The translations under genes and the position numbers were made by a program. A stretch of DNA of 64,000 nt from Fodinibius salinus (lineage in GTDB: Bacteria > Bacteroidota > Rhodothermia > Balneolales > Balneolaceae), in NCBI RefSeq assembly GCF_008124865.1, contig NZ_VNHY01000001.1:62001-126000 (forward strand), given 5' to 3'. Below the pieces are notes generated by a model. That model was not told the DNA's origin and searched no databases. It was given only the letters and a program-made list of their open reading frames with translations. Numbering within the stretch: the stretch's first letter is position 1; every line of letters starts with the position of its first letter. Positions 17,257-60,095 of this stretch are shown here, one piece after another.

Positions 17257-17880
17257 ATGAAGGTACCAACCGACCTTTCGTCTCTTACCGATACGCTGGA
17301 ATCAGATATGGACCTCAGTGATCTGGGGATTACCAAACAATTTGCGCCCGGTGAAACTATTGTGGCCGAGGATGCGCCCGTGCGAAGTATTCCTATTGTT
17401 ACAAAGGGAAGTATTAAGGTGTTGCAATCAGATGACACCTTTAAGGAAATGGTGCTTTACTATCTGCGTCCCGGTGAAACGTGCATTATGTCTTTTTTGG
17501 CAGGCTTATATCACGATACCAGCAAAGTGAAGGCGGTAGCCGAAGAGGAGTCGGAAGTACTGTTTATTCCGGTTGTTAAAATTCATAATCTCATTAAAGG
17601 GCATCCTGAATGGTTGAATTACATATTTCAGATTTATCACAAGCGTTTTGAGGAGTTGCTAGAAGTTGTGGATGCGGTAGCCTTCAAAAACATGGATGAA
17701 CGGCTACTTCAGTTTTTAGAGAAGCGTTGTGAAGTCATGGAAACGGACACGCTTTCCATGACACACGACCAGTTGGCCCAAGAGTTGGGAACGGCACGCG
17801 AAGTCATATCACGTTTGTTAAAGAAAATGGAGGCTGAGGGCCTTGTAGAGCTGGGTAGAAATAAAATTAGGCTTATGTGA
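17257..17880 (+). CDS. Crp/Fnr family transcriptional regulator (A)
   Basis: This 207-residue protein has a cyclic-nucleotide-binding-like beta roll (residues about 20-110) and a C-terminal helix-turn-helix (MTHDQLAQELGTAREVISRLLKKM, about 167-190). There is no N-terminal cysteine cluster of the FNR kind, and cAMP-contact residues are not conserved, so the effector is unknown; DNR/HcpR-like NO-responsive members have this build. A Crp-like palindrome overlaps its stop codon and precedes the thioredoxin gene. Confidence 0.85.
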   Translation: MKVPTDLSSLTDTLESDMDLSDLGITKQFAPGETIVAEDAPVRSIPIVTKGSIKVLQSDDTFKEMVLYYLRPGETCIMSFLAGLYHDTSKVKAVAEEESEVLFIPVVKIHNLIKGHPEWLNYIFQIYHKRFEELLEVVDAVAFKNMDERLLQFLEKRCEVMETDTLSMTHDQLAQELGTAREVISRLLKKMEAEGLVELGRNKIRLM

Positions 17881-21717: not shown

Positions 21718-22287
21718 AAATAGTTGTTTTAGGATCTTTTTATTTAGAGATCACAGTATAAAAAACTCCGCCTGTAACGGAAACTTAAAACGGATTTTAT
21801 TTTCCATTGAGCTCTTGCCTAGTAGGGTGATCTAGATATCCAGTCCACAACCCACATAATTTTTGCGCGTCTCTTGGAAAGCGGGTTAGTAGGAGCAATG
21901 TTTGGTATATATTCACTAAATTTTCAAATCCCAGAATTGTATCGGTGCTGTTTAATTTATTTTTCCGAACTTTGGCGACTAATAGTATTGTGGAAGGGGA
22001 GGGGACGGGTATTCTCTGTTATAATTGCAAAGAGTTCAAGTTCGGCTCATCGACTAGCTCTATTATCTCAAGAGCATCAGATAAATTGTTTTCTTTTTGT
22101 GGATGAATCGTATATTCCCGAAGGCATAGATTTATGCATTTCTTATTTTAACAAATCGGCTATAGCCCCAAGCAAAATTGACCCATTTCCTTTCTTACAG
22201 GAGAGAGAAAAAAGTGCAAAAAAATATTTGTATTAGACGTAGGATAGTCATAGTTTAAGATAAAATTGTCTTAAAACTTAAATTATA
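21718..22287. other. Gene-poor gap upstream of Rrf2 gene B
   Basis: This 570-bp stretch has no gene I can support. A plus-strand frame at 21874-22236 encodes 120 residues (ending EKSAKKYLY), but its first half is Cys/Trp-rich and lacks a domain, and no ribosome-binding site is evident. It may be a decayed gene. The operator for Rrf2 gene B is at the right end. Confidence 0.5.
22254..22275 (+). promoter_or_regulatory. Putative Rrf2 operator, site 3 (upstream of Rrf2 gene B)
   Basis: TTTAAGA-N8-TCTTAAA is a perfect 7-bp inverted repeat around an 8-bp core (TAAAATTG). It ends 12 bp before the regulator's ATG, a position suited to autorepression. It is the most symmetric member of the set. Confidence 0.65.
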
Positions 22288-22740
22288 ATGATCTTCTCCA
22301 AATCATGTGTGTATGGCCTACGGGCGATGATCTATCTCGCGTCGATATCGAGAGAAGATTATGTATCGATCAAAGGATTGAGTGAAAAGCTTGATATCTC
22401 ATTCCATTTTTTAACGAAGATATTGCAGCAATTAACGGCGGCGGATCTCTTGGAGTCGATGAAAGGCCCCAAAGGCGGGGTGAGGCTGTCAAAGCCCGGT
22501 AGTGAAATTACGTTGAAAGAGGTTGTTGAAGCTATTGACGGCCCGGCAATTTTTACCGAGTGTGTCCTGGGGTTACCTGGTTGTGGTAGTGAAAAACCGT
22601 GTCCAATGCACGACATGTGGCAAAATACACGGGATGGAATTAATGAAGTATTTATGAGTACCAGTTTGAAGGATATGTCAAAGGAAGGGAAAAAGAAGGA
22701 TTTACGAATTACACCTGACGGAAAATTTATTTGGGGTTGA
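22288..22740 (+). CDS. Rrf2 family transcriptional regulator, NsrR/IscR-like (paralog B)
   Basis: The 150-residue protein aligns without gaps to the one at 15411, including the recognition helix ISFHFLTKILQQLT, wing GPKGGVRL and cluster cysteines C92, C99 and C105. It stands directly upstream of the nos operon and has the best palindromic operator in its promoter. I infer an NO-sensing repressor like NsrR. With the recognition helices the same, both paralogs should bind the same sites. Confidence 0.87.
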   Translation: MIFSKSCVYGLRAMIYLASISREDYVSIKGLSEKLDISFHFLTKILQQLTAADLLESMKGPKGGVRLSKPGSEITLKEVVEAIDGPAIFTECVLGLPGCGSEKPCPMHDMWQNTRDGINEVFMSTSLKDMSKEGKKKDLRITPDGKFIWG

Positions 22741-22900
22741 TGCTTATGTATTGCAGTGCTGCAAATTGTTACGAGAAATGCTTTGCAGCCATGCAATGGT
22801 AAAAAGAGACGCCCTTTGGTTACTTTTATCGCTGATATTGAAAACGCCGTCAAGACCTTTAAAATAAGTTTTTGATTGAAATAGACAACGAAGTGTAATT

Positions 22901-22916
22901 TGGCACGATAGTTGCA
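22901..22916 (+). promoter_or_regulatory. Sigma-54 promoter of the nos operon
   Basis: TGGCACG-N4-TTGCA matches the -24/-12 consensus at every defined position. Counting 12 bases from the GC of the -12 element puts the transcription start near 22927, the first base of the Rrf2-type operator. The cytochrome c ATG follows at 22961. Sigma-54 promoters need an enhancer-binding activator such as NorR; none is encoded in the window. Confidence 0.7.
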
Positions 22917-22926
22917 AATTCACTAA

Positions 22927-22948
22927 TAAAAGATAAAATACTCTTAAA
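22927..22948 (+). promoter_or_regulatory. Putative Rrf2 operator, site 4 (nos operon)
   Basis: TAAAAGA-N8-TCTTAAA with core TAAAATAC lies at the predicted start point of the sigma-54 promoter and 12 bp ahead of the first gene. A bound repressor would block initiation. Confidence 0.65.
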
Positions 22949-22960
22949 ACTAAAAGCATA

Positions 22961-23431
22961 ATGAATACTCAAATATCAAAAATTACTGGATTGATAGTAT
23001 TAACAATGGCACTGCTAATAGGCTGTGGCAAGAGTTCGGATAGCGAAAAGGATAGCACGGATTCTGAGGAAGAAAAGCAGGAGCTTACCGATTTTGAAAT
23101 GACAAATGGTATTGGTCCGGTTGACGAAGAAATTACGATTGAGGAAATCGATACCGAACTAGCCAAAGAAGGGATGCGAGTTTTTGATATGAAGTGCGGT
23201 GCTTGTCATAAGTTGGACAAGCGCTATGTAGGGCCTCCATTAGGGGGCGTTATGAATGCACGTACGCCGGCTTATGTCATGAATATGATTCTAAATCCGG
23301 AAGAAATGCTTAAAAAGCATCCTGTCGCTAAATCGGTCGGGTCTGAATACCCCACCCGAATGACGAATCAACAATTGACCAGAGAAAAAGCACGCGCTGT
23401 GGTAGAATATTTGGCACAAGAATCACAATAA
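22961..23431 (+). CDS. Lipoprotein c-type cytochrome of the nos operon
   Basis: The 156-residue protein has a lipobox LLIGC (C22), an acidic linker (about 28-65) and a class I cytochrome c domain with heme motif CGACH (C79, C82, H83) and a likely axial Met at 134 (PTRMT). As first gene of the operon, 39 bp before nosZ, it is probably the electron donor to NosZ on the periplasmic side of the inner membrane. Clade II nos clusters often carry such cytochromes. Confidence 0.88.
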   Translation: MNTQISKITGLIVLTMALLIGCGKSSDSEKDSTDSEEEKQELTDFEMTNGIGPVDEEITIEEIDTELAKEGMRVFDMKCGACHKLDKRYVGPPLGGVMNARTPAYVMNMILNPEEMLKKHPVAKSVGSEYPTRMTNQQLTREKARAVVEYLAQESQ

Positions 23432-23470: not shown

Positions 23471-25447
23471 ATGAATAAATTATTAAAAAAATCTTTGTTG
23501 TGGCCCCTTGCGGCAGTAGCAGCAATAGGTTTTCTATCTGTGGGTTGTAGCTCGAATGGGGAGTTTGGTTCCTCTTCTGACGCTGCAGAGAAAGTTTACG
23601 TAGCACCGGGAGAGCACGATGAATTTTACGGCTTCTTTTCCGGTGGTTACAATGGACAGCTTGGCGTATATGGATTGCCATCTGGCCGACATATCTACAC
23701 CATTCCGGTCTTTTCACAAACTCCGACAAATGGCTATGGATATTCTGAAGAAACAAAATCCATGTTGCAGACTACCGACGGATTTGTACCGTGGGGCGAT
23801 GCACACCACCCTGAACTTTCTCAAACAGATGGGGAAACGGATGGTCGCTGGGTATTTATGAATGAGAATAATACCCCACGTGTTGCTCGTGTTGGTTTGG
23901 ATGAATTTAAAACACAAGAGATTATCGAGATCCCTAATTCAGCGGGTAATCACGCATCGTCTTTTGTGACTCCCAATACTGAGTACGTATCGGCAGCTAC
24001 ACGTTTTAGTATTCCCATGGACGAGAAAAATATGGAGAATATGGATGTGAGCATCGACAGCTATAAAGAGAATTTTAAAGGGACTATCTCTTTTATCAAG
24101 GTATCTGACAAAGGAAAGATGAATATTGATTTCCAAATTATGATGCCGGGCTTCAACTATGATCTTTCCCACGCAGGAAAAGGCCCTTCTCATGGCTGGT
24201 CGTTCTTTACTTCATATAACAGTGAAGAAGCAAATACGATGCTTGAGATCAACGCTTCAAGAAACGACAAGGATTATATTGCAGCTATTAACTGGGAGAA
24301 AGCAGCTGAGTATGCTAAGCAGGGTAAAGGTAAAATGATGCCCGGAAAGCACTATCGCAACTATATTGACCATGAAGAAGGCGGTGTTGCTAAAAGTGAA
24401 GTTATTGAAAAAGTGCGCGTACTTGATCCGCGGAAGCTGGAAGGTATCGTTTACTTTCTGCCTACGCCTAAATCCCCCCACGGTGTTGATGTAGATCCTA
24501 CGGGACAATACATCGCAGCGGGTGGTAAACTTTCTACAGTTATACCGGTACACTCATTTGCCAAGATGGAAGAAGCTATCGAGAATAAAGATTTTGAAGG
24601 CAAAGAGCAGGGTATTCCGGTATTGAATTACGATTCCATTCTGCATGGTGAGGTCGAAAACCCAGGATTGGGACCACTCCACACCGAGTTCGACGGCAAG
24701 GGGTATGCTTATACAACGGCCTTTATCTCATCAGAAATAGTAAAATGGGATATAGAAACAGCCGAAGTTGTTGACCGTATCGACGTGTATTATTCTCCCG
24801 GCCACTTGATGATACCGGGCGGTGACAGTCAGAATCCCGACGGTAAATACTTGGTAGCACTAAACAAAATTACTAAGGATCGTTATCTGCCAACAGGACC
24901 AGAAATGTTCCACTCGGCACAACTGATTGATATCTCAGGCGATAAGATGAAGTTATTGCTGGACTTCCCTACAGAAGGTGAGCCACACTACGCACAGGCT
25001 ATTACGGCTGATAAGGTGAAGGAGCGTCAGAAACGATTCTACGAAATCGATGACAATAACCATCCCCGAGCAACAAAAAGTGAGAAAGAAGCACGGGTAG
25101 AGCGTGATGGCAACGAGGTGCATGTATATATGACGACTATCCGAAGTCACTTTGCACCCGATAATATTGAAGGTATCAAAGTTGGTGACGAGGTGTATTT
25201 CCACGTCACAAATCTCGAGCAGGACTGGGATGTACCTCACGGTTTTGCTGTAAAAGGTGCAAATACCTCCGAGCTGCTCATTATGCCGGGCGAAACGTTG
25301 ACATTGAAATGGGAGCCCAAAAAGCCAGGTGTTGTTCCGTTCTACTGCACCGACTTTTGTTCAGCTCTGCACCAAGAGATGCAGGGTTATGTACGGGTAT
25401 CTCCAGAAAATTCAGATACACCAATCTCTTATGGCACAGGTGAATAA
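23471..25447 (+). CDS. nosZ: Nitrous oxide reductase, clade II (Sec-dependent, lipoprotein type)
   Basis: The 658-residue protein reduces N2O to N2. The CuA site is complete at the C-terminus: H590 (VPHGF), C626, C630, H634 and M637 (CTDFCSALHQEM). CuZ histidines include H112 and H113 (GDAHHPE) and H161. The signal peptide has no twin arginine; it ends in LSVGC (C26), so export is Sec-dependent with probable lipidation. These are marks of the clade II (atypical) enzyme. Length is normal for the clade. It is the second gene of the operon and is followed by a strong hairpin. Confidence 0.97.
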   Translation: MNKLLKKSLLWPLAAVAAIGFLSVGCSSNGEFGSSSDAAEKVYVAPGEHDEFYGFFSGGYNGQLGVYGLPSGRHIYTIPVFSQTPTNGYGYSEETKSMLQTTDGFVPWGDAHHPELSQTDGETDGRWVFMNENNTPRVARVGLDEFKTQEIIEIPNSAGNHASSFVTPNTEYVSAATRFSIPMDEKNMENMDVSIDSYKENFKGTISFIKVSDKGKMNIDFQIMMPGFNYDLSHAGKGPSHGWSFFTSYNSEEANTMLEINASRNDKDYIAAINWEKAAEYAKQGKGKMMPGKHYRNYIDHEEGGVAKSEVIEKVRVLDPRKLEGIVYFLPTPKSPHGVDVDPTGQYIAAGGKLSTVIPVHSFAKMEEAIENKDFEGKEQGIPVLNYDSILHGEVENPGLGPLHTEFDGKGYAYTTAFISSEIVKWDIETAEVVDRIDVYYSPGHLMIPGGDSQNPDGKYLVALNKITKDRYLPTGPEMFHSAQLIDISGDKMKLLLDFPTEGEPHYAQAITADKVKERQKRFYEIDDNNHPRATKSEKEARVERDGNEVHVYMTTIRSHFAPDNIEGIKVGDEVYFHVTNLEQDWDVPHGFAVKGANTSELLIMPGETLTLKWEPKKPGVVPFYCTDFCSALHQEMQGYVRVSPENSDTPISYGTGE

Positions 25448-25528: not shown

Positions 25529-26098
25529 ATGGATACTAAAGAAAAAATTTGGATGGCCATTGCAGCACTAATGCTTATAGGAGTTTATTTTGTTCCCATT
25601 TGGAGTATCAGCATGGATGCGCCCCAATACCCAGAGGGAATTGGAATGAATATTACGGTAGATAATATCCAGGGCAAACAGAAAAACGATTTAAAAAATA
25701 TTAATGGATTGAACCACTATATCGGGATGAAAGAAATTAATCCCAATTCAATACCCGAGCTCAAGGTTATGCCCTATATCTTTGGTTTCTTGATTATCAG
25801 TGGATTAGTTATTGCTGGAGTTGGTAATGAAAAATGGATTTTATTTTGGCTCGGAATATTTGTTTTGCTGGCTATTGCCGGTCTAGTAGACTTTTACATT
25901 TGGGGATACGATTATGGACATAATTTAGATTCCTCCGCCCCAATTGTAGTGCCAGGTATGACGTATCAGCCACCACTTATCGGTAGTAAGCAATTGCTAA
26001 ATATTAATGCCACCTCACTGCCGCATATCGGATTTTATATTTCATTACTTTCAATGGGAATAGCCAGTACAGTATGGTGGAAGAGCAAAAAGGATTGA
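25529..26098 (+). CDS. Nos-cluster integral membrane protein
   Basis: The 189-residue protein has a transmembrane helix at 8-27, then a soluble segment holding NHYIGM (about 62-67), then helices near 84-103, 104-126 and 164-183. Proteins of this kind follow nosZ in clade II clusters (sometimes called nosB), with no assigned biochemical role. Position suggests a part in electron transfer or NosZ maturation. Its 3' end approaches the nosL start at 26119. Confidence 0.7.
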   Translation: MDTKEKIWMAIAALMLIGVYFVPIWSISMDAPQYPEGIGMNITVDNIQGKQKNDLKNINGLNHYIGMKEINPNSIPELKVMPYIFGFLIISGLVIAGVGNEKWILFWLGIFVLLAIAGLVDFYIWGYDYGHNLDSSAPIVVPGMTYQPPLIGSKQLLNINATSLPHIGFYISLLSMGIASTVWWKSKKD

Positions 26099-26118
26099 CA
26101 AACAAAAAGGATACAACA

Positions 26119-26565
26119 ATGTATTTATACAAATTATTAAAGATTATTGCTGTTATAGGACTGTTGCTGTTGGTTACGGCTTGCAGCCAAGAACCAGCAG
26201 AAATTCACTACGGTAATGATGAGTGTGCGCATTGTAAGATGATGATTACAGATGCTCAATTTGCATCACAGATTGTTACCGATAAGGGTAAGGTCCATAA
26301 GTTTGATGCCATAGAGTGTATGGCCATTTATTATCAAATGAATCAAGATGAGTTGGACGGCGCAAAGCTTTATGTGAGTAATTATGCTAAACCCGGAAAC
26401 TGGTTAAACGCGAAGAAGACCCAATTTGTAAAAAGTGAAGTGGTCAACAGTCCTATGGGTGAATCCCTGATTGCTTTTCCCTCCCGAAAAGAAGCAGAGA
26501 AGCACATTAGTGATCGACCAGGAAAATTATTGAAGTGGGCAGAGGTGTCCCAAATTGAAATGTAG
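26119..26565 (+). CDS. nosL: NosL copper chaperone lipoprotein
   Basis: The 148-residue protein starts at ATG 26119 because a signal peptide and lipobox (LVTAC, C22) follow directly; an earlier in-frame start at 26074 would put 15 polar residues before the signal and overlap the upstream gene. The NosL motif CAHCKMM (C36, C39) is present. NosL delivers Cu(I) to apo-NosZ in the periplasm with the NosDFY complex. Confidence 0.92.
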   Translation: MYLYKLLKIIAVIGLLLLVTACSQEPAEIHYGNDECAHCKMMITDAQFASQIVTDKGKVHKFDAIECMAIYYQMNQDELDGAKLYVSNYAKPGNWLNAKKTQFVKSEVVNSPMGESLIAFPSRKEAEKHISDRPGKLLKWAEVSQIEM

Positions 26566-26614
26566 CAGTAAGGCTACAGATTGGTACTGAAAATTTAGAA
26601 TAAGGATTGAGGCT

Positions 26615-27862
26615 ATGAGATTATTTAAACTAACAATGTTATTGTTTGTTGGGTTATTGCTATCAGCCCAACAGGTTTGGGCGACTCAGATTACCGTTTC
26701 TAAGAACGGTGACATCACTTCTGTACAGGCCGGTATTGACCAAGCCCAACCGGGTGATACCGTTTTTGTTAAAGCAGGACGCTATGTTGAGTATAATATC
26801 CAAATAGATAAAAGAATCACGTTATTGGGAGAAGACAATGCTATCATTGACGGTGATGAGCAGGGTTTTGTCGTTGTTGTTAAAGCGGATAGTACCGTGA
26901 TAAAAGATATTGAAGTTCATAACAGTAAAGCTGGTTTTATGGATGACTACGCTGGCATTGTTGTTGAGGAAGCCAATAACGTGCATATCGAGAATGTGAA
27001 GATGGTTAATAACTTTTTCGGGATCTACCTCGCAAAATCGGAGGGGACTATTGTGAAGGGAAATCATATTATTGCATCACGTCAGCGCGAAACCAATTCC
27101 GGAAATGGTATTCATCTTTGGTACACTAAAGATGTAGAAATTACTAATAACTATGTAAGTGGCCATCGCGACGGGCTTTATTTTGAGTTTGTGGAAGGGG
27201 CCTTTATTGCCGGTAACGAAAGCGAAAACAATATTCGCTACGGTATTCACTTTATGTATTCTGATAATTGTCGTTACGAACGCAATACTTTTCGTGATAA
27301 TGGAGGAGGAGTTGCCGTAATGTATACTTCAAACGTAGAAATCGTAAATAATCACTTTGCTGATAATTGGGGGTCGTCGGCATACGGAATGCTGCTAAAA
27401 GAAATAAACAGAAGTATAGTGACTGGAAATACCTTTACCAATAATTCTGTAGGATTGTATATGGAGGCCTCCAGTCGAAACAAGGTGAAAGACAATGCAT
27501 TTGAACAGAACGGCTGGGCTGTTAAATTGATGGCAAATTCTACGAACAATACGTTTACTGAAAATAATTTTATCGCTAACTCTTTTGAAGTTTCAACGAA
27601 CAGTCGAATGAATTACAGTAATAATTTTGATCACAATTACTGGAGTCAGTATGAGGGGTATGATCTGGACCGCGATGGTGTAGGCGATGTTCCGCATCGC
27701 CCGGTGCGCCTGTTTTCGATTTTAGTAGAGAAACAACCGCAGTCGTTGTTATTGCTGCGGAGTCTGTTAATTGATCTTTTGGATGCCGCCGAAAAGTTTA
27801 TGCCGGTCCTAACCCCGGAGACACTTATTGATTCTAAACCGCAAATGGAACCTGTATTATGA
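26615..27862 (+). CDS. nosD: NosD, periplasmic copper-delivery beta-helix protein
   Basis: The 415-residue protein has a signal peptide ending QQVWA. The bulk is a right-handed beta-helix (CASH/NosD repeats) with recurrent N-N/N-x-F ladders such as NNFFGIYLAKSEG and NNSVGLYMEASS. NosD docks on the NosFY ABC complex and passes copper from NosL to NosZ. Its stop overlaps the nosF ATG by 4 bp. Confidence 0.92.
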   Translation: MRLFKLTMLLFVGLLLSAQQVWATQITVSKNGDITSVQAGIDQAQPGDTVFVKAGRYVEYNIQIDKRITLLGEDNAIIDGDEQGFVVVVKADSTVIKDIEVHNSKAGFMDDYAGIVVEEANNVHIENVKMVNNFFGIYLAKSEGTIVKGNHIIASRQRETNSGNGIHLWYTKDVEITNNYVSGHRDGLYFEFVEGAFIAGNESENNIRYGIHFMYSDNCRYERNTFRDNGGGVAVMYTSNVEIVNNHFADNWGSSAYGMLLKEINRSIVTGNTFTNNSVGLYMEASSRNKVKDNAFEQNGWAVKLMANSTNNTFTENNFIANSFEVSTNSRMNYSNNFDHNYWSQYEGYDLDRDGVGDVPHRPVRLFSILVEKQPQSLLLLRSLLIDLLDAAEKFMPVLTPETLIDSKPQMEPVL

Positions 27863-28569
27863 TTTCAATACAACAACTACAAAAAGATTTTGGTGCCCGT
27901 ACGGTCCTTGATGAGCTGGATTTAGAAATTCCGGCCGGACAGGCTACCGGTATCGTTGGTCCTAATGGATCGGGCAAAACGACAACAATTAAGGCACTAT
28001 TAGGATTGGTAAAACCTACTTCTGGAGATATCTTAATTGATGGAAAATCAATCGAAGGAGAGTGGGAGTATCGCAATAAGATTGGTTATATGCCGCAGAT
28101 TGCCCGGTATCCCGAAAATATGACGATTGGTGAACTCTTTCAGTTTATCAAAAATATGAGGAACAGTGATACCAATCGCGATCGGGAATTACTCGAATAT
28201 TTTGAACTGGATAATGAAATTGACAAGCGAATGCGGGCCCTTTCCGGTGGGATGCGCCAAAAAGTGGGTGCTATTCTGGCGATGATGTTCGATCCCCAAA
28301 TACTGATCTTTGATGAACCCACAGCGGGGTTGGATCCCAAGTCGAGCGTACAGTTCAAGAGGTTGGTGCACCGCGAAAAGGAAAAAGGAAAAACGGTGCT
28401 GTTAACATCACATATTATGAGTGAGATCGAAGAGCTGACCGATCATCTGATCTTTTTAGTGGAAGGGGATATTCGATACGACGGCCCGATGCATGAGCTC
28501 ATGGAACGACAACAAGAACAGCGGCTTGAAGGCGCCGTGGCAAAAATGATGGAGGAAACAGCAGCATGA
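27859..28569 (+). CDS. nosF: NosF, ABC transporter ATPase
   Basis: The 236-residue protein has Walker A GPNGSGKTT (ending at T42), signature LSGGMRQK near 130, Walker B LIFDEPTAGLD near 150 and a switch histidine in LLTSH. It is the cytoplasmic motor of the NosDFY copper-cluster maturation machine. It overlaps nosD and nosY by 4 bp each, marking strict coupling. Confidence 0.93.
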   Translation: MISIQQLQKDFGARTVLDELDLEIPAGQATGIVGPNGSGKTTTIKALLGLVKPTSGDILIDGKSIEGEWEYRNKIGYMPQIARYPENMTIGELFQFIKNMRNSDTNRDRELLEYFELDNEIDKRMRALSGGMRQKVGAILAMMFDPQILIFDEPTAGLDPKSSVQFKRLVHREKEKGKTVLLTSHIMSEIEELTDHLIFLVEGDIRYDGPMHELMERQQEQRLEGAVAKMMEETAA

Positions 28570-29357
28570 AAACACTAACGATTTTAAAATATCAATGGAA
28601 AGATCTGCTTCGCGGGAAATGGATTGTTGGCTATGGCCTCATCTATCTGCTCATTGCCGATGCAATGATTCGATTTGGTAATGCAGGGCCCAAAGCAATG
28701 CTCAGTATCTCGAATATTATGTTGCTTCTGATTCCACTCGTAGGGATGATATATGGCGCGCTGTACCTATATCAGGCGCGTGAATTTACCGAGTTATTGT
28801 TGGCGCAACCGATTGACCGCTCCTCGTTATTTTGGGGGTTATTTGGCGGATTGGCGATCCCGTTGGCGTTAGCATTCACAGTGGGGACAGCACTGCCTAT
28901 GATTTATACCGGTATGATCCTTACAGCAAATCTGCAATCGATTTTGCTGATCTTGATGCTTGGTATCATCTTATCATTGTTATTTACAGGTATAGGTTTT
29001 TGGTTTGGTCTCAAGTTTTTCGAAGATCGCGTGAAAGGACTCGGTTTTGCACTTGTAAGCTGGCTCTTTTTAGCGGTGCTTTACGATGGACTAGTCCTCT
29101 TAGCAGTATTTGCTTTCGGGGATTATCCCATTGAAAAGCCGATGCTGGGCCTGGCTCTGGCAAATCCCATTGATTTGGCTCGGATAACTGTCTTACTTGA
29201 GTTTGATATTTCGGCCTTGATGGGATACACCGGGGCAGTTTTCAATCGCTTTTTTGGTAGTATGGTGGGGATCAGTGTGGCATTCAGTTGTCTGATGTTG
29301 TGGCTCGGTATTCCCTTATGGAGAAGTCAGCAACAGTTCGAAAAGAAAGATTTTTAA
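28566..29357 (+). CDS. nosY: NosY, ABC transporter permease
   Basis: The 263-residue protein has six predicted transmembrane helices and the ABC-2 type permease topology of NosY. The first helix follows WKDLLRGKWIVGYGL and the last ends at IPLWRSQ. It forms the membrane channel of NosDFY. It is the last nos gene before a 134-bp gap and hemN. Confidence 0.9.
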   Translation: MKTLTILKYQWKDLLRGKWIVGYGLIYLLIADAMIRFGNAGPKAMLSISNIMLLLIPLVGMIYGALYLYQAREFTELLLAQPIDRSSLFWGLFGGLAIPLALAFTVGTALPMIYTGMILTANLQSILLILMLGIILSLLFTGIGFWFGLKFFEDRVKGLGFALVSWLFLAVLYDGLVLLAVFAFGDYPIEKPMLGLALANPIDLARITVLLEFDISALMGYTGAVFNRFFGSMVGISVAFSCLMLWLGIPLWRSQQQFEKKDF

Positions 29358-31919: not shown

Positions 31920-31941
31920 TTTAAGATAAGATAGTATTAAA
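31920..31941 (+). promoter_or_regulatory. Putative Rrf2 operator, site 5 (upstream of ric)
   Basis: TTTAAGA-N8-TATTAAA with core TAAGATAG lies 43 bp before the ric start codon. Iron-sulfur repair genes are classic NsrR targets, which supports the assignment. Confidence 0.6.
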
Positions 31942-31984
31942 TATTAAATAGGGTCGTAATTTTGAACTTAATGAATGTACAGAT

Positions 31985-38337: not shown

Positions 38338-39744
38338 TTATGATCCTTTAATTGGTTTAAGCCGAGCAGAAAAGTGCCGAAGTACATCCGGACTATCGAC
38401 AATTTTATAGCCCTCCAATTTTTTACGTTGTTCATAAGCAGAGATTATGACTTCAGCCAGGTAGTCGACATGACTTTGAGTATACATTCGTCGGGGAAAA
38501 GCCAGCCGAACGAGTTCCATAGCAGCTGGTTTTTCGGAGCCATCGGGTTGTTTGCCGAACATAACAGTGCCAATTTCTACGCCGCGAATACCGCCCAACA
38601 GGTAGAGCGCATTATTAAACGACCAAGCGGGATATTCCGTGGGAGGGATGTGAGAAAGGATTTGCTTGGCGTCCAGGTACACCGCATGCCCGCCAGTGGG
38701 TTGTACAATAGGAATACCTGCCTCAGTTAGTTTATCTCCTAGATAGCTTATAGACCGGATTCGATAACGAAGATAATCAGGGTCGAGAGCTTCATATAAT
38801 CCTTGGGCAACAGCCTCCATGTCATAGCCGGCCATCCCACCATAGGTAGGGAATCCTTCAGTAAGGATTTCGAGATTTCGACATTCTGAAGCTAGTTCAT
38901 CACTATTCAGAGCCAAGAACCCGCCGATGTTGGCCATACCGTCTTTTTTGGCACTCATGGTACATCCATCGGCATAGCTAAACATTTCTTGAGCAATTTC
39001 TATGGGCTTTTTATCGGCAAAAGCATCTTCACGTGTTTTGATAAACCAAGCGTTTTCCGCAAATCGGCAGGCATCAATAAAGAACGGAATATTATGTTTA
39101 TGAGCGATTTCAGAAACACCCTTGATATTAGCCATGCTTACCGGCTGTCCGCCGCCCGAATTATTTGTGACGGTTATCATGATTACCGGAATATCTTCGG
39201 AACCAACTTCTCTTATGGTATCTTGTAGCTTTTCCAAATTCATATTCCCCTTAAAGGCATGGTCGCTTTGCGGTTGTTTCCCTTTATCGATAACGAGATC
39301 ACGTGCTTCGGCCCCGGCATGTTCAACATGGGCACGGGTCGTATCAAAATGGGTATTACTGGGGATGACGTCTCCTTTTTTCGCAATAGTTGTGAAGAAA
39401 ATGTTTTCGGCTGCCCGGCCTTGGTGAGTAGGAATCAGATGTTTAAATCCGGTGATATCCTGCACAGCCGATTCCAGCTTGTAGAATGAGGAAGAACCGG
39501 CATAGGATTCATCACTTTCAAGCATGCCTGCCCACTGTTTAGATGACATCGCTCCGGTACCGCTGTCAGTAAGTAAATCAATGACCACATCTTTAGCCTT
39601 TAGTAAAAACGGGTTGTAACCGGCCTCTTTGAGCAGCTGCTCGCGTTCTTCCATCGTGGTAAAACGGATAGGCTCTACCGAGCGGATGCGAAAAGGTTCA
39701 ATGATGGTATCTGTTTTGAAAGGCGAAAGGGACGAGATTTCCAT
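38338..39744 (-). CDS. tnaA: Tryptophanase
   Basis: The 468-residue PLP enzyme is a homologue of the TPL at 34646 but has tryptophanase residues: VEIG (V389-I391) where TPL has MERG, and LRHF where TPL has LRFF. The PLP lysine is in SAKKD (266-267). It splits tryptophan to indole, pyruvate and ammonia, and can also act on cysteine and serine. No tnaC-like leader was seen. The promoter region is shared with the divergent acyl-CoA synthetase and contains a putative Rrf2 site. Confidence 0.88.
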   Translation of the reverse strand: MEISSLSPFKTDTIIEPFRIRSVEPIRFTTMEEREQLLKEAGYNPFLLKAKDVVIDLLTDSGTGAMSSKQWAGMLESDESYAGSSSFYKLESAVQDITGFKHLIPTHQGRAAENIFFTTIAKKGDVIPSNTHFDTTRAHVEHAGAEARDLVIDKGKQPQSDHAFKGNMNLEKLQDTIREVGSEDIPVIMITVTNNSGGGQPVSMANIKGVSEIAHKHNIPFFIDACRFAENAWFIKTREDAFADKKPIEIAQEMFSYADGCTMSAKKDGMANIGGFLALNSDELASECRNLEILTEGFPTYGGMAGYDMEAVAQGLYEALDPDYLRYRIRSISYLGDKLTEAGIPIVQPTGGHAVYLDAKQILSHIPPTEYPAWSFNNALYLLGGIRGVEIGTVMFGKQPDGSEKPAAMELVRLAFPRRMYTQSHVDYLAEVIISAYEQRKKLEGYKIVDSPDVLRHFSARLKPIKGS

Positions 39745-39823
39745 AATAAAAGCCGATTGTTGGGTTAATATTTAATAGTAAAAAGAGGATTTTGTCTTTG
39801 ACAAAGTATAATATTAACGGTAA

Positions 39824-39845
39824 AATAAGACAAATTACTCTTAAA
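39824..39845 (+). promoter_or_regulatory. Putative Rrf2 operator, site 6 (tnaA / acyl-CoA synthetase gap)
   Basis: AATAAGA-N8-TCTTAAA with core CAAATTAC lies 17 bp before the acyl-CoA synthetase ATG and about 80 bp before tnaA on the other strand. It could control both. Confidence 0.6.
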
Positions 39846-39862: not shown

Positions 39863-41944
39863 ATGCTTGATCCATTCTTTAAACCACAGGGGGTTGCAGT
39901 TATTGGTGCTTCCCGGAATCCCCATAAACTGGGATACGGCATAGTTAGAAATCTCAAGGAATATCGATATCAGGGCGGGATATATCCGGTTAACAAATCT
40001 GCGACTGAAATACTGGATTTGCACTGTTATGAGTCGGTGGCAGAAGTTCCCGATCCTGTGGATTTAGCTATCGTTATAGTACCGGCACCTGTTGTCTCAA
40101 AGATTATAAAGGAATGTGGACAGCGAGGTATTAAGCATGCGATTGTAATTAGTGGTGGATTTAGCGAGAGCGGTGAAGAAGGCGAGAAGTTGGAAGAGGA
40201 TCTTGTTAGCGTAGCAGAGGAATGGGATGTCAATTTTATTGGTCCCAACTGTATTGGCACCATCGACACCCATACCCCGGTAAATACAACCTTTGTAGCA
40301 GGAATGCCGGAGTCAGGAGAAATTGGATTTTGTTCGCAATCAGGTGCGATGGTAGCTTCAGTGATTGACTGGGCTCGTGGGGCGGGAGTAGGATTTTCGC
40401 GGATTGTAAGTTTGGGTAACCAGGTTGATGTCAATGAAACACAGATGATTGAAGCACTGCACGAGGATGATCAAACGAAGGTGATTACGGCCTATATTGA
40501 AGGGGTTTCGAATGGAAAAGAGTTTATGAAGGTAGCCCAGAAAGCAGCTGAAGATAAACCAGTGGTAGCGTTAAAAGGCGGACGAGGGGAAAGCGGAGCT
40601 CGAGCAGTGGCATCCCATACGGGGGCGTTAGCCGGCAGTGCCGAGGCGTATGGAGCAGCTTTTGAACGCAGCGGTATTCTACAGGCAGGAACTATGGAAG
40701 AGATGTTTGATTGGGCACGAGCCTTGGCTTGGCAACCGCTTCCCAAAGGGAAAAATGTGGCAGTGTTAACAAATGCGGGCGGACCAGCTATCCTGGCAGT
40801 TGATGCCTTAGAAAAAGCAGGGATGCAATTGGCTGAACTGACTGCAGAGACTAAAAAATATTTGGAGTCGCGACTACCTAAAGCTGCCAGTGTAAGCAAT
40901 CCCGTTGATGTGTTAGCGGGCTCTGGTCCGGGTACTTATGCGGTGGCGTTGGATGCGTTACTAACTGATGAAACCGTGGACTCGGTTGTAGTTATACAGG
41001 CACCTCAGGATTGGTTTTTGCCAGCCAGTTTGGCTGAAGTGGTGGGTGAGGTAGCTGGTTCGCATGATAAGCCTGTTATTGCATCTATTATGGGGAAAGC
41101 CTCTGTGGATGAAGCGCTGAACATATTACATAAGCGAAAAATACCAAACGTTGCTTTTCCGGAGCGGGTGGCTTCAGTCTTGAAAGCTATGGTCAAGCGC
41201 AAAGAGTGGCTCGATATTCCACAGCAAACACCTGAGCAATTTACTGATTTTAATGAACAGAAAGTTCAAAAAAGTGCCGCAGAAAAGGATTGGAAATCGC
41301 TGCTTGTAGAATATGGCATTGCCTTTCCTCCGGAGCAGTTTGCTGAAAATAAGGCAGAAACCGTTACAGTTGCAGAGTCTATTGGATATCCGGTAGTTTT
41401 AAAATTGGTTTCTGAATCCGTTTCGCACAAAACCGAAGTGGATGGGGTGAAATTAGATATCAGGAGTAAAGATGAAGTAACTGCAGCGTGGAATAAAATC
41501 AAAGAGGCGGCCGAGTTAGCAGATGTTGATATGGAAGGTGTGCAGGTCCAAAAAATGCTAACAGGCGGGCAAGAAGTGATTATGGGACTTCGGCGCGATC
41601 CGCAATTTGGACCTATGGTACTGTTTGGAACCGGGGGGACTGATGTAGAGCTTTTGCAGGACGTGGAATCAGCAATTGCGCCCTTGAATCGACTACAAGC
41701 TGAGAATTTGGTGGATGCTACTCGTGCCGGTATTAAGATGAAAGGCTGGCGAAATCAGCCACCGGCTGACCGAGAAACGGTTATTACATATTTGATGCGG
41801 CTATCACAGCTTGGCAATGACTTGTCAAACATTGATGAACTGGAAATGAACCCTTTATATGTATTATCCAAAGGACAGGGTGCTTATGCCGTGGATGTCA
41901 GAGGTACATTGGTTGAGGATGAAAAAGTAGTAGTACAAGACTGA
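39863..41944 (+). CDS. Acyl-CoA synthetase (ADP-forming), fused alpha-beta
   Basis: The 693-residue protein joins the CoA-binding and ligase alpha part (GVAVIGASRNPHKLGYG, phospho-His candidate H252 in ASHTGAL) to an ATP-grasp beta part (about 480-693, VVLKLVSESVSHKTEVDGV). It makes acyl-CoA plus ADP or ATP plus acid reversibly, with acetate or aryl-acetate as typical substrates. Next to tnaA and tpl this would recover ATP from acids made in amino-acid breakdown (inference). It heads a plus-strand operon with GTG-started downstream genes. Confidence 0.88.
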   Translation: MLDPFFKPQGVAVIGASRNPHKLGYGIVRNLKEYRYQGGIYPVNKSATEILDLHCYESVAEVPDPVDLAIVIVPAPVVSKIIKECGQRGIKHAIVISGGFSESGEEGEKLEEDLVSVAEEWDVNFIGPNCIGTIDTHTPVNTTFVAGMPESGEIGFCSQSGAMVASVIDWARGAGVGFSRIVSLGNQVDVNETQMIEALHEDDQTKVITAYIEGVSNGKEFMKVAQKAAEDKPVVALKGGRGESGARAVASHTGALAGSAEAYGAAFERSGILQAGTMEEMFDWARALAWQPLPKGKNVAVLTNAGGPAILAVDALEKAGMQLAELTAETKKYLESRLPKAASVSNPVDVLAGSGPGTYAVALDALLTDETVDSVVVIQAPQDWFLPASLAEVVGEVAGSHDKPVIASIMGKASVDEALNILHKRKIPNVAFPERVASVLKAMVKRKEWLDIPQQTPEQFTDFNEQKVQKSAAEKDWKSLLVEYGIAFPPEQFAENKAETVTVAESIGYPVVLKLVSESVSHKTEVDGVKLDIRSKDEVTAAWNKIKEAAELADVDMEGVQVQKMLTGGQEVIMGLRRDPQFGPMVLFGTGGTDVELLQDVESAIAPLNRLQAENLVDATRAGIKMKGWRNQPPADRETVITYLMRLSQLGNDLSNIDELEMNPLYVLSKGQGAYAVDVRGTLVEDEKVVVQD

Positions 41945-51013: not shown

Positions 51014-51033
51014 TAAGATAAAATAGTATTAAA
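51012..51033 (+). promoter_or_regulatory. Putative Rrf2 operator, site 7 (upstream of prpD-like gene)
   Basis: AATAAGA-N8-TATTAAA with core TAAAATAG, 68 bp before the start codon. Identical from AAGA to the end with the site at 58384. Confidence 0.6.
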
Positions 51034-51101
51034 TATTATAAGTGCTGATGTTGTTAAAATAGCAGTCAGCTTAGAATCTAAAATGAAATGAGGTAGCATT
51101 T

Positions 51102-56385: not shown

Positions 56386-58341
56386 ATGATGAAATCACTC
56401 CAAAAACAGTTACAAAATGCAACAAAACGGAAGAAAGCACTACTAGTCCTCAGCGGTCTGCTTATCACTGCCGGATGGACCGTCGATATCTTTTGGGCTT
56501 CGGGTTGGTCGTTTAATGTCTTGATGTTGTTGGCAACAATAACGGCCGGATTTGAGATCGCCCGCCGGGCATGGCAGGGGCTATGGAACGGACATACCAA
56601 TATTGAACTATTGGTGACTATCGCTGCAACGGGTGGGCTCTTTATCGGTGTGTTCTGGGAGGCCGCAGCTGTTACCTTTCTGTTTCTGCTTGGCGGCTGG
56701 CTGGAAGCTCGGACGATGAGCAAGACTCGAGATACCCTGAAAGAGCTCATTAATATGGCTCCGGAAATGGCCATAATTGTGGGTGATGAAGGACGCAGGG
56801 AAATTCCAGCCCGTCAGGTCGAAGATGAGATGCAGGTACTAGTTAAACCCGGGTCAAAAATTCCGGTTGATGGTATTGTGGAATCCGGCGTCACAACAGT
56901 TGATGAAAGTGCCATTACCGGAGAGCCCATTCCTGCCGAAAAGGAATCCGGCTCAGAAGTGTATGCCGGAACGATTAATAAAAATGGCCGTATTTATATA
57001 CGCGCCACTAAATCAGGGGCCGATACCACGCTGGCGAAAATAATACGGCGCGTAGAGGAAGCCCAGGAAGAGAAGGCTCCTACGCAGCGTTTCATCGAAC
57101 GATTTGCAAGCTGGTACACGCCTGGTATTGTGGGATTGAGTATCATCTCCTACCTGTTTACGTGGAATCTAGAACTTGGGCTCACACTGCTGGTGATAGG
57201 TTGTCCCGGTGCCTTGGTCATTTCGACGCCCATATCGATTATATCCGGTATAGGCAATGCAGCCAAGAAAGGCATCCTCATAAAAGGGGGCGAATACTTG
57301 GAAAATGCCGGGAAGGTGTCGGCGGTAGCATTGGATAAAACGGGTACCCTGACCACCGGTAAACCGAGTGTAACTGAGCTCATTTACTTTTCACAGGAAA
57401 CTGCTTTAGCCGGTGTAAGTCAGGAGGAAAGTCTTGCGGAAGTACATACGGCTTCTTTGGTGAATGGAAATAATGGGTCGCTACCCTCAGAAGGTGAAGA
57501 ACTTCTCTATTGGACTGCCATAGCCGAATCAGCCTCCGAACATCCCTTGGCGGAGGCCATTATAGCAGAGACAAACGAAATGACGGATCTCCCGGAACCC
57601 GACCAGTTTGAATCTCATACCGGACAAGGAATTGAGGCGGTGTTAGGTGACAATCATATTTATGTGGGGAAGGCCGACTTTCTGAAAGAAAAAGGGATAT
57701 CCATTGGTGAAGGCATTAATAAAGAGATTCAAAACCTTACGAATAGAGGACGTACCGTGGTATTTACAGCAAGAAATAACAAACTAGTTGGAGCTATCGG
57801 GATAGCTGACCCAATGCGCACGGAAACGACGGAAATGATATCCAAGCTTCGTGAAAATGGAATTGAACGTATTGCAATGCTTACCGGTGATGCAAAATCT
57901 ACGGCTAACGCCATTGCCGGGGAAAGCGGTATCACAGAGGTACATGCGGGGATTCTTCCAGAAGACAAAAACGATATCATCCTTGCAATGCAAGAGGAAG
58001 GGTATCAGGTGGCGATGGTCGGAGATGGTATTAATGATGCCCCGGCATTGGCTACCGCTGATATTGGCATTGCAATGGGCGCGGCCGGTACTGATGTAGC
58101 CATAGAAACAGCCGATATTGCCCTGATGACAGACAAGCTCATGAATATTCCGGAGGCTTTAAGGATATCAAAACTGACGTTACGGAATATTCACCAGAAT
58201 GTTGTCATTGCTTTGGTTACGGTAGGTGCATTACTTGCTGGTGTATTTGCAGGATCGGTACATATGGCAGCAGGTATGCTTATTCACGAACTATCGGTTA
58301 TGCTTGTGATATTTAACGGCATGCGCCTGCGATGGAAGTAG
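56386..58341 (+). CDS. Heavy-metal-translocating P1B-type ATPase with CPG motif
   Basis: The 651-residue protein has the P1B core: TGEPIP (about 178-183), DKTGTLT with D317, SEHPLAEA, and GDGINDAPAL. The membrane metal motif in transmembrane helix six is CPG (C273) where most transporters have CPC, CPH or SPC. No N-terminal metal domain is fused; the CopZ-like protein upstream takes its place. Metal specificity is uncertain; copper is plausible given nirK and nosZ. Confidence 0.87.
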   Translation: MMKSLQKQLQNATKRKKALLVLSGLLITAGWTVDIFWASGWSFNVLMLLATITAGFEIARRAWQGLWNGHTNIELLVTIAATGGLFIGVFWEAAAVTFLFLLGGWLEARTMSKTRDTLKELINMAPEMAIIVGDEGRREIPARQVEDEMQVLVKPGSKIPVDGIVESGVTTVDESAITGEPIPAEKESGSEVYAGTINKNGRIYIRATKSGADTTLAKIIRRVEEAQEEKAPTQRFIERFASWYTPGIVGLSIISYLFTWNLELGLTLLVIGCPGALVISTPISIISGIGNAAKKGILIKGGEYLENAGKVSAVALDKTGTLTTGKPSVTELIYFSQETALAGVSQEESLAEVHTASLVNGNNGSLPSEGEELLYWTAIAESASEHPLAEAIIAETNEMTDLPEPDQFESHTGQGIEAVLGDNHIYVGKADFLKEKGISIGEGINKEIQNLTNRGRTVVFTARNNKLVGAIGIADPMRTETTEMISKLRENGIERIAMLTGDAKSTANAIAGESGITEVHAGILPEDKNDIILAMQEEGYQVAMVGDGINDAPALATADIGIAMGAAGTDVAIETADIALMTDKLMNIPEALRISKLTLRNIHQNVVIALVTVGALLAGVFAGSVHMAAGMLIHELSVMLVIFNGMRLRWK

Positions 58342-58358
58342 TAATTATACGGAATGAC

Positions 58359-58374
58359 TAGCGAGTGGATTGCA
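58359..58374 (+). promoter_or_regulatory. Weak sigma-54-like promoter
   Basis: TAGCGAG-N4-TTGCA has a perfect -12 element and a partial -24 element (4 of 7, lacking the first G of GG). The spacing to the operator at 58384 (11 bp from the GC) repeats that seen at the nos operon. Confidence 0.35.
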
Positions 58375-58383
58375 ATATTAATA

Positions 58384-58405
58384 AAAAAGATAAAATAGTA
58401 TTAAA
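58384..58405 (+). promoter_or_regulatory. Putative Rrf2 operator, site 8 (upstream of the secreted protein ahead of nirK)
   Basis: AAAAAGA-N8-TATTAAA with core TAAAATAG. It shares 19 bases in a row with the site at 51012 (AAGA-N8-TATTAAA) and lies 62 bp before the gene. Confidence 0.6.
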
Positions 58406-58467
58406 TCTTTATAATATCTTCACATTCAGAATATATACTCAAGTAGAAATTCAGAAAGGCAATTTTT

Positions 58468-59006: not shown

Positions 59007-60095
59007 ATGAGTTCTGACAAAACAGATAACGGATTTTCTCGAAAACAGTTCATGAAAAACATGGGCGGAGCTATGCTCTCGGGTGGTTTTTTGGCTGGAG
59101 CTTTACCGTTTGGTGCTCAAGCAAAAGAGCAGAAGAATAAGCCCAACCTAAAGCCTGCAGCTGTTGAAGCTGACAGGGTGGCTGCTGATCCCACTAATAT
59201 TCCGGGTCCTATAAAGCGGTCATCGCCTAAAACACATGAAATTGAACTGGAAACTACAGAAGTAGTTGCAGAAATAGAAGATGGTGTGCAGTTTCGCTAC
59301 ATGACGTATGGGGATCAGGTTCCGGGTCCGATGATACGGGTTCGACAAGGCGATACGGTTATTTTAACGCTCAAAGCTTCTGAAAATAACGCGATGCTTC
59401 ATAATGTTGATTTCCATGCCGTTTATGGTACGGGAGGAGGAGCTAATGCTACGTTTGTGACACCCGGACAATCGAAAACAATAAAGTTCAAAGCAATGTA
59501 TCCGGGTGCTTATATTTATCACTGTGCTGTACCGCGGTTAGATTATCACATCAGCAGTGGGATGTACGGGATGATTTTCGTAGAGCCCAAGGAAGGATTG
59601 CCTGAAGTAGATCATGAGTTATATTTTGGACAAAATGAAGTATATACCCAACAATCAATTGGGGCACAGGGCATGCATGAGTTTGATCACGAAGCAATGC
59701 GCGATGAGATTTCGACTTATGTATTGTTAAATGGCGAGAAAAAGGCTATTACTGCTGATCGGCGCGGACCGGTAAAGGTAAAAAAGGGGGAAACCGCTCG
59801 CTTATTTTTCGTTAACGGTGGACCAAACCTGTCTTCCAGTTTTCACCCTATTGGTAATGTGTGGACCAAGGCTTGGCGCGAAGGTGCTATTGCCAGTAAT
59901 CCGGAACGATACGTACAAACCACAGAGATACCACCGGGCAGTTGCGGAATTTTTGAGATGGATTTTCCCGTACCGTCAACTATCCACTTGGTGGATCACG
60001 CCTTAAGTCGCGTAGCCAGTAAGGGCATGATGGGTGATATCGTTGTTGAAGGCAAAGATGAACCGGATATTTTCGATCCTAACTATAGTTCATAA
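59007..60095 (+). CDS. nirK: Copper-containing nitrite reductase (NirK)
   Basis: The 362-residue protein has both copper sites: type 1 H132, C173, H181 and M186; type 2 H137, H172 and H331; catalytic D135 and H280. The loop between C173 and H181 (CAVPRLDYH) is one residue shorter than in classical NirK and matches the haloarchaeal form. The N-terminus (FSRKQFMKNMGG...) looks like a Tat signal with RK in place of RR. It reduces nitrite to NO in the periplasm. Azurin follows 44 bp downstream. Confidence 0.94.
   Translation: MSSDKTDNGFSRKQFMKNMGGAMLSGGFLAGALPFGAQAKEQKNKPNLKPAAVEADRVAADPTNIPGPIKRSSPKTHEIELETTEVVAEIEDGVQFRYMTYGDQVPGPMIRVRQGDTVILTLKASENNAMLHNVDFHAVYGTGGGANATFVTPGQSKTIKFKAMYPGAYIYHCAVPRLDYHISSGMYGMIFVEPKEGLPEVDHELYFGQNEVYTQQSIGAQGMHEFDHEAMRDEISTYVLLNGEKKAITADRRGPVKVKKGETARLFFVNGGPNLSSSFHPIGNVWTKAWREGAIASNPERYVQTTEIPPGSCGIFEMDFPVPSTIHLVDHALSRVASKGMMGDIVVEGKDEPDIFDPNYSS

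Follow-up and report, generated by a model that had tools for sequence, protein, structure and literature searches.

What controls the nos operon of the salt-loving bacterium Fodinibius salinus, given that a candidate sigma-54 promoter and an Rrf2-type operator lie side by side between an Rrf2-family gene and the first nos gene? We analyzed a 64,000-nucleotide stretch of DNA (the window, from whose first base positions are counted) together with the rest of the 2.86-Mb genome (G000) and nos loci from other genomes. As listed in Table 1, the region upstream of nos contains a sigma-54 site, a pair of palindromes and the operator. Our best explanation, which we consider highly probable, is that nos would be transcribed from a sigma-54 promoter, activated from the palindromes by an AtoC/NtrC-type regulator and repressed by an Rrf2 protein bound just past the start.

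Table 1. Features of the proposed nos control region and associated genes (window positions unless another contig is given)
Feature	Position	Strand	Details
Crp/Fnr gene	17257-17880		in the window
Rrf2-type operator copy AAGATAAAATTGTCTT, preceding rrf2	22257-22272	+	sequence match
Rrf2-family regulator gene	22288-22740	+	C-X6-C-X5-C motif; Pfam PF02082, 113.6 bits
Putative enhancer palindrome, distal, TTGCAGTGCTGCAA	22751-22764	.	exact TTGCA-N4-TGCAA (8 occurrences genome-wide); pair kept at 12 nos loci
Putative enhancer palindrome, proximal, TTGCAGCCATGCAA	22783-22796	.	exact TTGCA-N4-TGCAA; pair kept at 12 nos loci
Candidate sigma-54 −24/−12 promoter TGGCACGATAGTTGCA	22901-22916	+	sole exact match in the genome; conserved GG, A and TTG at 12 nos loci
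Predicted transcription start	22927	+	from sigma-54 geometry, 12 nt past the −12 C
Rrf2-type operator AAGATAAAATACTCTT, 16 bp	22930-22945	+	about +4 to +19; score 22.7 at +10.5
c-type cytochrome gene, first in the nos operon	22961-23431	+	Pfam PF00034
nosZ, nitrous oxide reductase	23471-25447	+	Pfam PF18764; nearest NosZ among named records is Fodinibius, 86% identity (F. sediminis, F. roseus)
nosL, nosD and ABC-transporter genes (nosF/Y type), downstream	26074-29357	+	Pfam NosL, NosD, ABC_tran, ABC2_membrane_2
AtoC/NtrC-like response regulator, receiver-AAA-HTH	G000 C2:423267-424625		GAFTGA present

An earlier note on this DNA had placed a TGGCACG-N4-TTGCA element at 22901, and both its position and its complete fit held up. 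The site (TGGCACG-ATAG-TTGCA) has no mismatch to the sigma-54 consensus used for matching, TGGCACG-N4-TTGCW, and is the only exact match in the window as well as in the genome. The number of exact matches predicted from base composition is 0.44 for the genome, 0.01 for the window and 2e-5 for 220 nt of a single strand, so genome-wide the match alone is weak evidence, and the case for the site rests on its position and conservation. With up to two mismatches allowed, the pattern has 313 matches in the genome and its reversed version 232. In 12 of 12 orthologous nos promoters the GG, A and TTG columns are invariant and the −24/−12 spacing is fixed, with the T of TGG retained in 11 of the 12. The −12 C is retained in seven, and its absence from the other five counts against our explanation. 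The locus has the features by which a sigma-54 promoter is recognized: a GG at −24 and a GC at −12 with fixed spacing (perfect in the window), RpoN and a GAFTGA-bearing enhancer-binding protein encoded in the genome, and upstream activator sites (UAS) in the form of tandem palindromes, which we regard as putative sites. The earlier note's reading called for an rpoN gene, and the RpoN found is complete (513 aa; the three sigma-54 domains of Pfam are all present).

The same note had merged the promoter with the operator and placed the start on the operator's first base. The sigma-54 site does lie just upstream of the Rrf2-type operator; however, the operator begins at 22930, so the predicted start falls 3 bp before it. 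The note had also reported a weaker copy of this layout at 58359, which did not stand. There, TAGCGAGTGGATTGCA has three mismatches, including one in the −24 GG, and is at chance level (81 three-mismatch matches in the window, 78 expected). No enhancer palindrome with up to two mismatches was found in 58100-58359, and we rejected a second sigma-54 promoter at this place, although an operator-like palindrome does exist beside it, at 58387-58409.

The sequence can also be read as a housekeeping promoter, with the TTG at 22912 acting as a −35-like element and TAAAAT (22934-22939) as the −10, Rrf2 covering the −10 and the sigma-54 match being coincidental. TAAAAT does resemble a −10 hexamer, the operator with its TAAAAT stretch is kept at loci that lack the sigma-54 arrangement and must use another promoter, and the chance expectation given above would allow a coincidental match. 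We nevertheless consider this reading unlikely: the distance from TGG to AAAnACTC varies between 35 and 39 bp while that from TGG to TTG is fixed, the GG is conserved as much as the TTG, and UAS pairs at phased distances accompany sigma-54 sites at other genes.

Upstream of nos lies a pair of palindromes, absent from the earlier note, that look like an enhancer. The two TTGCA-N4-TGCAA elements are spaced 32 bp apart, and their centers precede the predicted start by 169.5 and 137.5 bp. Elsewhere in the genome, the exact single palindromes at C1:567379 and C1:40232 were set aside because both are inside open reading frames, and the palindrome at C4:244787 is part of a pair upstream of a zinc dehydrogenase gene. 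To place the pair within the order, we identified NosZ in 75 of 128 genomes and examined 70 of these loci upstream, leaving out five truncated nosZ places (G093, G094, G102, G112 and G120). The pair together with a GG-N8-TTG site (hereafter the module) is present at 12 of the 70 loci (G000, G010-G019 and G074) and not at the other 58. The near palindrome lies 84.5-139.5 bp from the start at these 12 loci, with values near 85, 119, 128.5 and 138.5 that differ by near whole helical turns (Rayleigh R 0.80). When each of the 27 distinct distances across module promoters was counted once, R was 0.41 (p 0.012, related genomes not being independent); this phase test took 40 of 43 rows, three alternative pairings in L200 being left out. 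Over all 72 module promoters R was 0.55. Together this suggests that module distances tend to hold helical phase.

We also checked other phyla, covering 77 of the 80 nos loci in L041-L120 (three have too little upstream DNA). The pair, at up to one mismatch, appeared only in L041, L042 and L044, which were not recounted because they are Fodinibius records repeating G016, G011 and G015 with the same promoter sequences. A fourth record, L043, repeats G010 and escaped this screen since one of its palindromes has two mismatches. A stricter sigma-54 screen, with TGC required, found no site in any of these loci.

Could the palindromes instead be Crp/Fnr-type boxes serving a separate promoter upstream of 22901, with the sigma-54 site minor or unused? 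They have the general form TTGnn-N4-nnCAA of FNR/NnrR boxes, boxes so shaped appear in the available part of PMC6710368, and the window holds a Crp/Fnr gene. However, across module promoters the palindromes sit 84-184 bp from the predicted starts, always paired and beside sigma-54 sites, and they cluster around one sigma-54 activator gene and around none of the other activators, which makes this alternative very improbable.

The activator gene in question belongs to a set of nine genomic matches to Sigma54_activat, four of them strong (237-248 bits) and the others at 21-36 bits. By Pfam, three of the strong activators are receiver-AAA-HTH_8 proteins and one is AAA-HTH_8. The NO sensor of NorR is a GAF domain; none of the four strong activators contains one at E 0.001, and the NorR-type activator that the earlier note had in mind was rejected on this ground. 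Five palindromes with up to one mismatch lie in 19 kb around the AtoC/NtrC-like regulator gene, compared with none in 12-13 kb around each of the other three strong activators. This regulator scores 459 bits on the NCBIfam model for AtoC, 431 on NtrC and 336 on NorR, all under cut-off. Its gene is adjoined by one for a PAS histidine kinase with two apparent N-terminal membrane segments, as judged by eye, whose best model is AtoS, under the equivalog cut-off. In G000, palindrome pairs precede a porin-like gene and YceI genes beside the regulator and kinase, as well as the zinc dehydrogenase gene. Pairs with sigma-54 sites also flank the same regulator gene in relatives, where 37 pair starts occur in 378 kb (both strands, 17 relatives), whereas the nos loci of other genomes (L045-L120, 1386 kb) and shuffled flanks (1891 kb) contain none.

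Regulator orthologues of at least 72% identity are found in 12 of 12 module-bearing genomes and at 2 of the 58 nos loci without the module (Fisher p 9e-12; descent confounds this value, since 11 of the 12 belong to one genus). Orthologues at this level also occur in G009, which has no nosZ, and in G034 and G037; looser matches are present in G097, G103, G105, G106 and G109. G034 and G037 have nos and the regulator without the module at nos, which counts against our explanation. The sites, their conservation, spacing and phase, and their link to the regulator gene are properties of the sequences compared.

We then asked which other genes the module precedes. In 12 genomes of the genus, the tandem UAS pattern occurs at 37 places with 32-bp spacing (one for the reversed pattern) and at 15 with 33-bp spacing (again one reversed). 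Of these 52 places, 20 were newly read, 27 lie in other examined stretches and five with three mismatches were left out. Downstream of the 20 newly read pairs are genes for a nitrite reductase-like protein of 376-377 aa (6), a nitrite reductase of 378 aa (2), zinc dehydrogenase (4), TonB-like (4) and short-chain dehydrogenase (1) proteins, the last two types identified by eye, and a porin-like protein (3). On the copper nitrite reductase model the 378-aa protein scores 389 bits, above the cut-off of 296.3. Two members of the 377-aa nirK-like type were run on this model and scored 190-193 bits, under the cut-off; the best solved-structure matches of one such protein are nitrite reductases, and all six share at least 86% identity with one member. 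"Porin-like" is our reading of the sequence, as no family model matched that protein. The nirK of G000 itself (59007-60095) has operator-like sites and no UAS pair upstream in the window, so in this genome double control is seen at nos only. In L166 and relatives, a gene encoding a single-domain receiver (L166: 10253-10609, minus strand) points away from YceI and has a sigma-54-like site that reads the same pair backwards, suggesting that one enhancer may serve two promoters.

To ask where the module coincides with an Rrf2-type operator, we built a matrix from 20 operators chosen by eye at nos loci without the module and scored 72 automatically found module promoters (an earlier hand-made list had 39), taking a score of at least 14 within −40 to +60 as an operator. 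Random 100-nt segments of the window score 7.1 at the 95th percentile and 15.4 at the 99th. The operator was present at 18 of the 72 promoters, namely 12 of 12 at nos and 6 of 6 at the 377-aa nirK-like type, and none of the other 54 reached 14. The matrix includes one surplus copy and one operator, AAGACAATTTGGTCTT, with one wrong letter; removing the surplus copy, with the wrong letter still included, left the result unchanged at 18 of 72. Three porin-like promoters reach 12.7, and the two 378-aa nirK promoters, with scores of 9.0 and 10.4, have only a divergent TAGA..TCTA variant. By these scores, only nos and nirK promoters, of those examined, have the predicted double control. In L254 and L255, the sigma-54 site upstream of the 378-aa nirK is followed by two tandem TAGA-N8-TCTA palindromes, which a different Rrf2 protein, altered in its specificity, might recognize.

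Within the window, the 16-bp operator pattern has 9 matches where 1.88 are expected. The copy at 22257 is among them, and its position upstream of the rrf2 gene makes autoregulation probable. Two further sites of this type, 39783-39798 (minus) and 39827-39842 (plus), occupy an intergenic gap. The divergent genes on either side encode a beta-eliminating lyase (38338-39744) and a protein resembling acyl-CoA synthetases (39863-41944). A 23-bp palindrome, AAGATAAAATAGTATTAAATCTT (58387-58409), has near copies at 51015-51037 and 31923-31945; the three precede the nirK cluster, an MmgE/PrpD-like gene and a RIC/YtfE-type Fe-S repair gene, respectively, and may represent an additional operator type, NsrR-like and different from the 16-bp one.

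The operator is retained at most nos loci without the module, with best scores below 14 only in L145, L263 and L277, and in many of the module-free loci the best copy is the one upstream of rrf2. The distribution of the operator is wider than that of the module, suggesting that the operator is the older of the two, and we infer that the sigma-54 module was added ahead of an older Rrf2-controlled nos promoter. On a tree of 69 of the 70 NosZ rows, the module requires two changes, compared with 11.3 for shuffled labels, and the genomes that bear it form a clade of 11 plus G015 (L143), which groups with G037 (L144). The module may have been gained once and then lost, gained twice, or moved with nos. 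G015 has the module though its NosZ groups with G037, apart from the other 11, as would follow from nos transfer or from loss elsewhere. At L132-L137, nos loci with neither the module nor a cysteine-motif Rrf2 gene in the examined stretch, symmetric AAGACA-N4-TGTCTT-like operators lie upstream of nos, some of them two in tandem.

What might the Rrf2 protein sense? It passes the superfamily model TIGR00738 as well as PF02082, and scores below cut-off on every equivalog model compared: IscR 84, CymR 70, SUF regulator 67, NsrR 59 (58.7 bits, cut-off 182) and RirA 58 bits. By these models it fits no named subfamily. The C-X6-C-X5-C motif, with its three cysteines, is present in the Rrf2 protein of 12 of 12 module-bearing loci, and a looser motif at 50 of the 70 loci. 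Fe-S Rrf2 sensors carry such a three-cysteine motif, which by analogy makes NO a plausible signal. It is possible, though we lean away from it, that the promoter is built as proposed and that the signal for Rrf2 is Fe-S supply, iron or redox state instead of NO, so that the second input would not be nitrosative. The spread of model scores is compatible with this, as are the nearest solved structures (CymR and other Rrf2/IscR types) and the operator matches at 39827 and 51015, upstream of genes with no obvious tie to NO. On the other side, the RIC/YtfE-type gene and the nirK cluster each have an operator-like site upstream (at 31923 and 58387, respectively), and nirK promoters of sister species carry the operator, which together suggest a nitrogen-oxide regulon.

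Parts of this arrangement have precedents. In the NorR/sigma-54 system (norVW, norAB), as described in part of PMC1274295, tandem upstream palindromes for an enhancer-binding protein accompany a sigma-54 promoter at a nitrogen-oxide gene, as at nos here. According to the same part of PMC1274295, NorR senses NO itself, and its sites, as a rule three in number, have the form GT-N7-AC. At nos there are instead two sites, the candidate activator is a response regulator paired with a kinase, and a repressor operator lies at the start; compared with GT-N7-AC, the conserved TTGCA-N4-TGCAA sites are of another form. The NsrR regulon is similar in that an Rrf2-family repressor acts on nitrosative-stress and denitrification genes and in its operators, which begin AAGAT. 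The operator here differs in being of a 16-bp AAGAYA-N6-TCTT type combined with a sigma-54 promoter, and the Rrf2 protein falls under the NsrR cut-off. AtoSC and ZraSR are comparable in that AtoC and AtoS are the best models for our regulator and kinase; however, both proteins are under the equivalog cut-offs, and the module here precedes a set of genes made up of nos, nirK-like, YceI, porin-like and dehydrogenase genes as its presumed targets. Sigma-54 activators and two-component systems (NifA, RegSR, NtrYX) are likewise known to influence denitrification genes in Bradyrhizobium and Paracoccus. In the available text of PMC5582078, NifA is needed for maximal nap, nirK and nor expression and the microoxic induction of nos depends on the Crp/Fnr protein FixK2, while that of PMC9409073 reports that NtrYX is needed for complete denitrification under low iron. 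Neither text describes a sigma-54 enhancer combined with an Rrf2 operator at nos, nor do the available parts of PMC1274295, PMC6710368, PMC6264515, PMC12316311 and PMC3162934, and our literature search, which covered papers outside subscription, returned no report of one.

Given this, we propose the following circuit, for which the start site, protein binding, repression and both signals are what we infer from the sequence. The phosphorylated AtoC/NtrC-type response regulator, with its adjacent membrane-anchored PAS kinase, would bind the palindromes at 22751-22796 and contact sigma-54 polymerase at 22901-22916 through DNA looping, driving transcription of the nos operon. The neighboring Rrf2 protein, bound at 22930-22945, would block open-complex formation or promoter escape until released by its signal, probably NO or Fe-S cluster damage. 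Output would require that the enhancer be active and Rrf2 be off, and the same pairing would act on the nirK-like genes of sister species. The two-input logic that the earlier note proposed at nos gains strength from the enhancer pair and from this second set of genes; most likely, nos, and nirK in relatives, combine two-component enhancer activation with Rrf2 repression.

Bacteria that carry a nosZ of this type are consumers of the greenhouse gas N2O, and the control of nosZ outside the Proteobacteria is little described in the literature we found. The analysis offers a concrete candidate circuit, with named regulator genes, coordinates for enhancer, promoter and operator, and a matching circuit at nirK of sister species; it looks like an Rrf2-controlled respiratory promoter captured by a sigma-54 enhancer regulon. 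We speculate, with the balance about even, that a dedicated membrane two-component sigma-54 system is a denitrification regulator in Fodinibius, that it activates nosZ and nirK from phased enhancers, and that these two, as its sole targets bearing an Rrf2 operator just past the start, are under a gate of respiratory signal and NO. If true, this would place a strict gate on the production and consumption of N2O alike.
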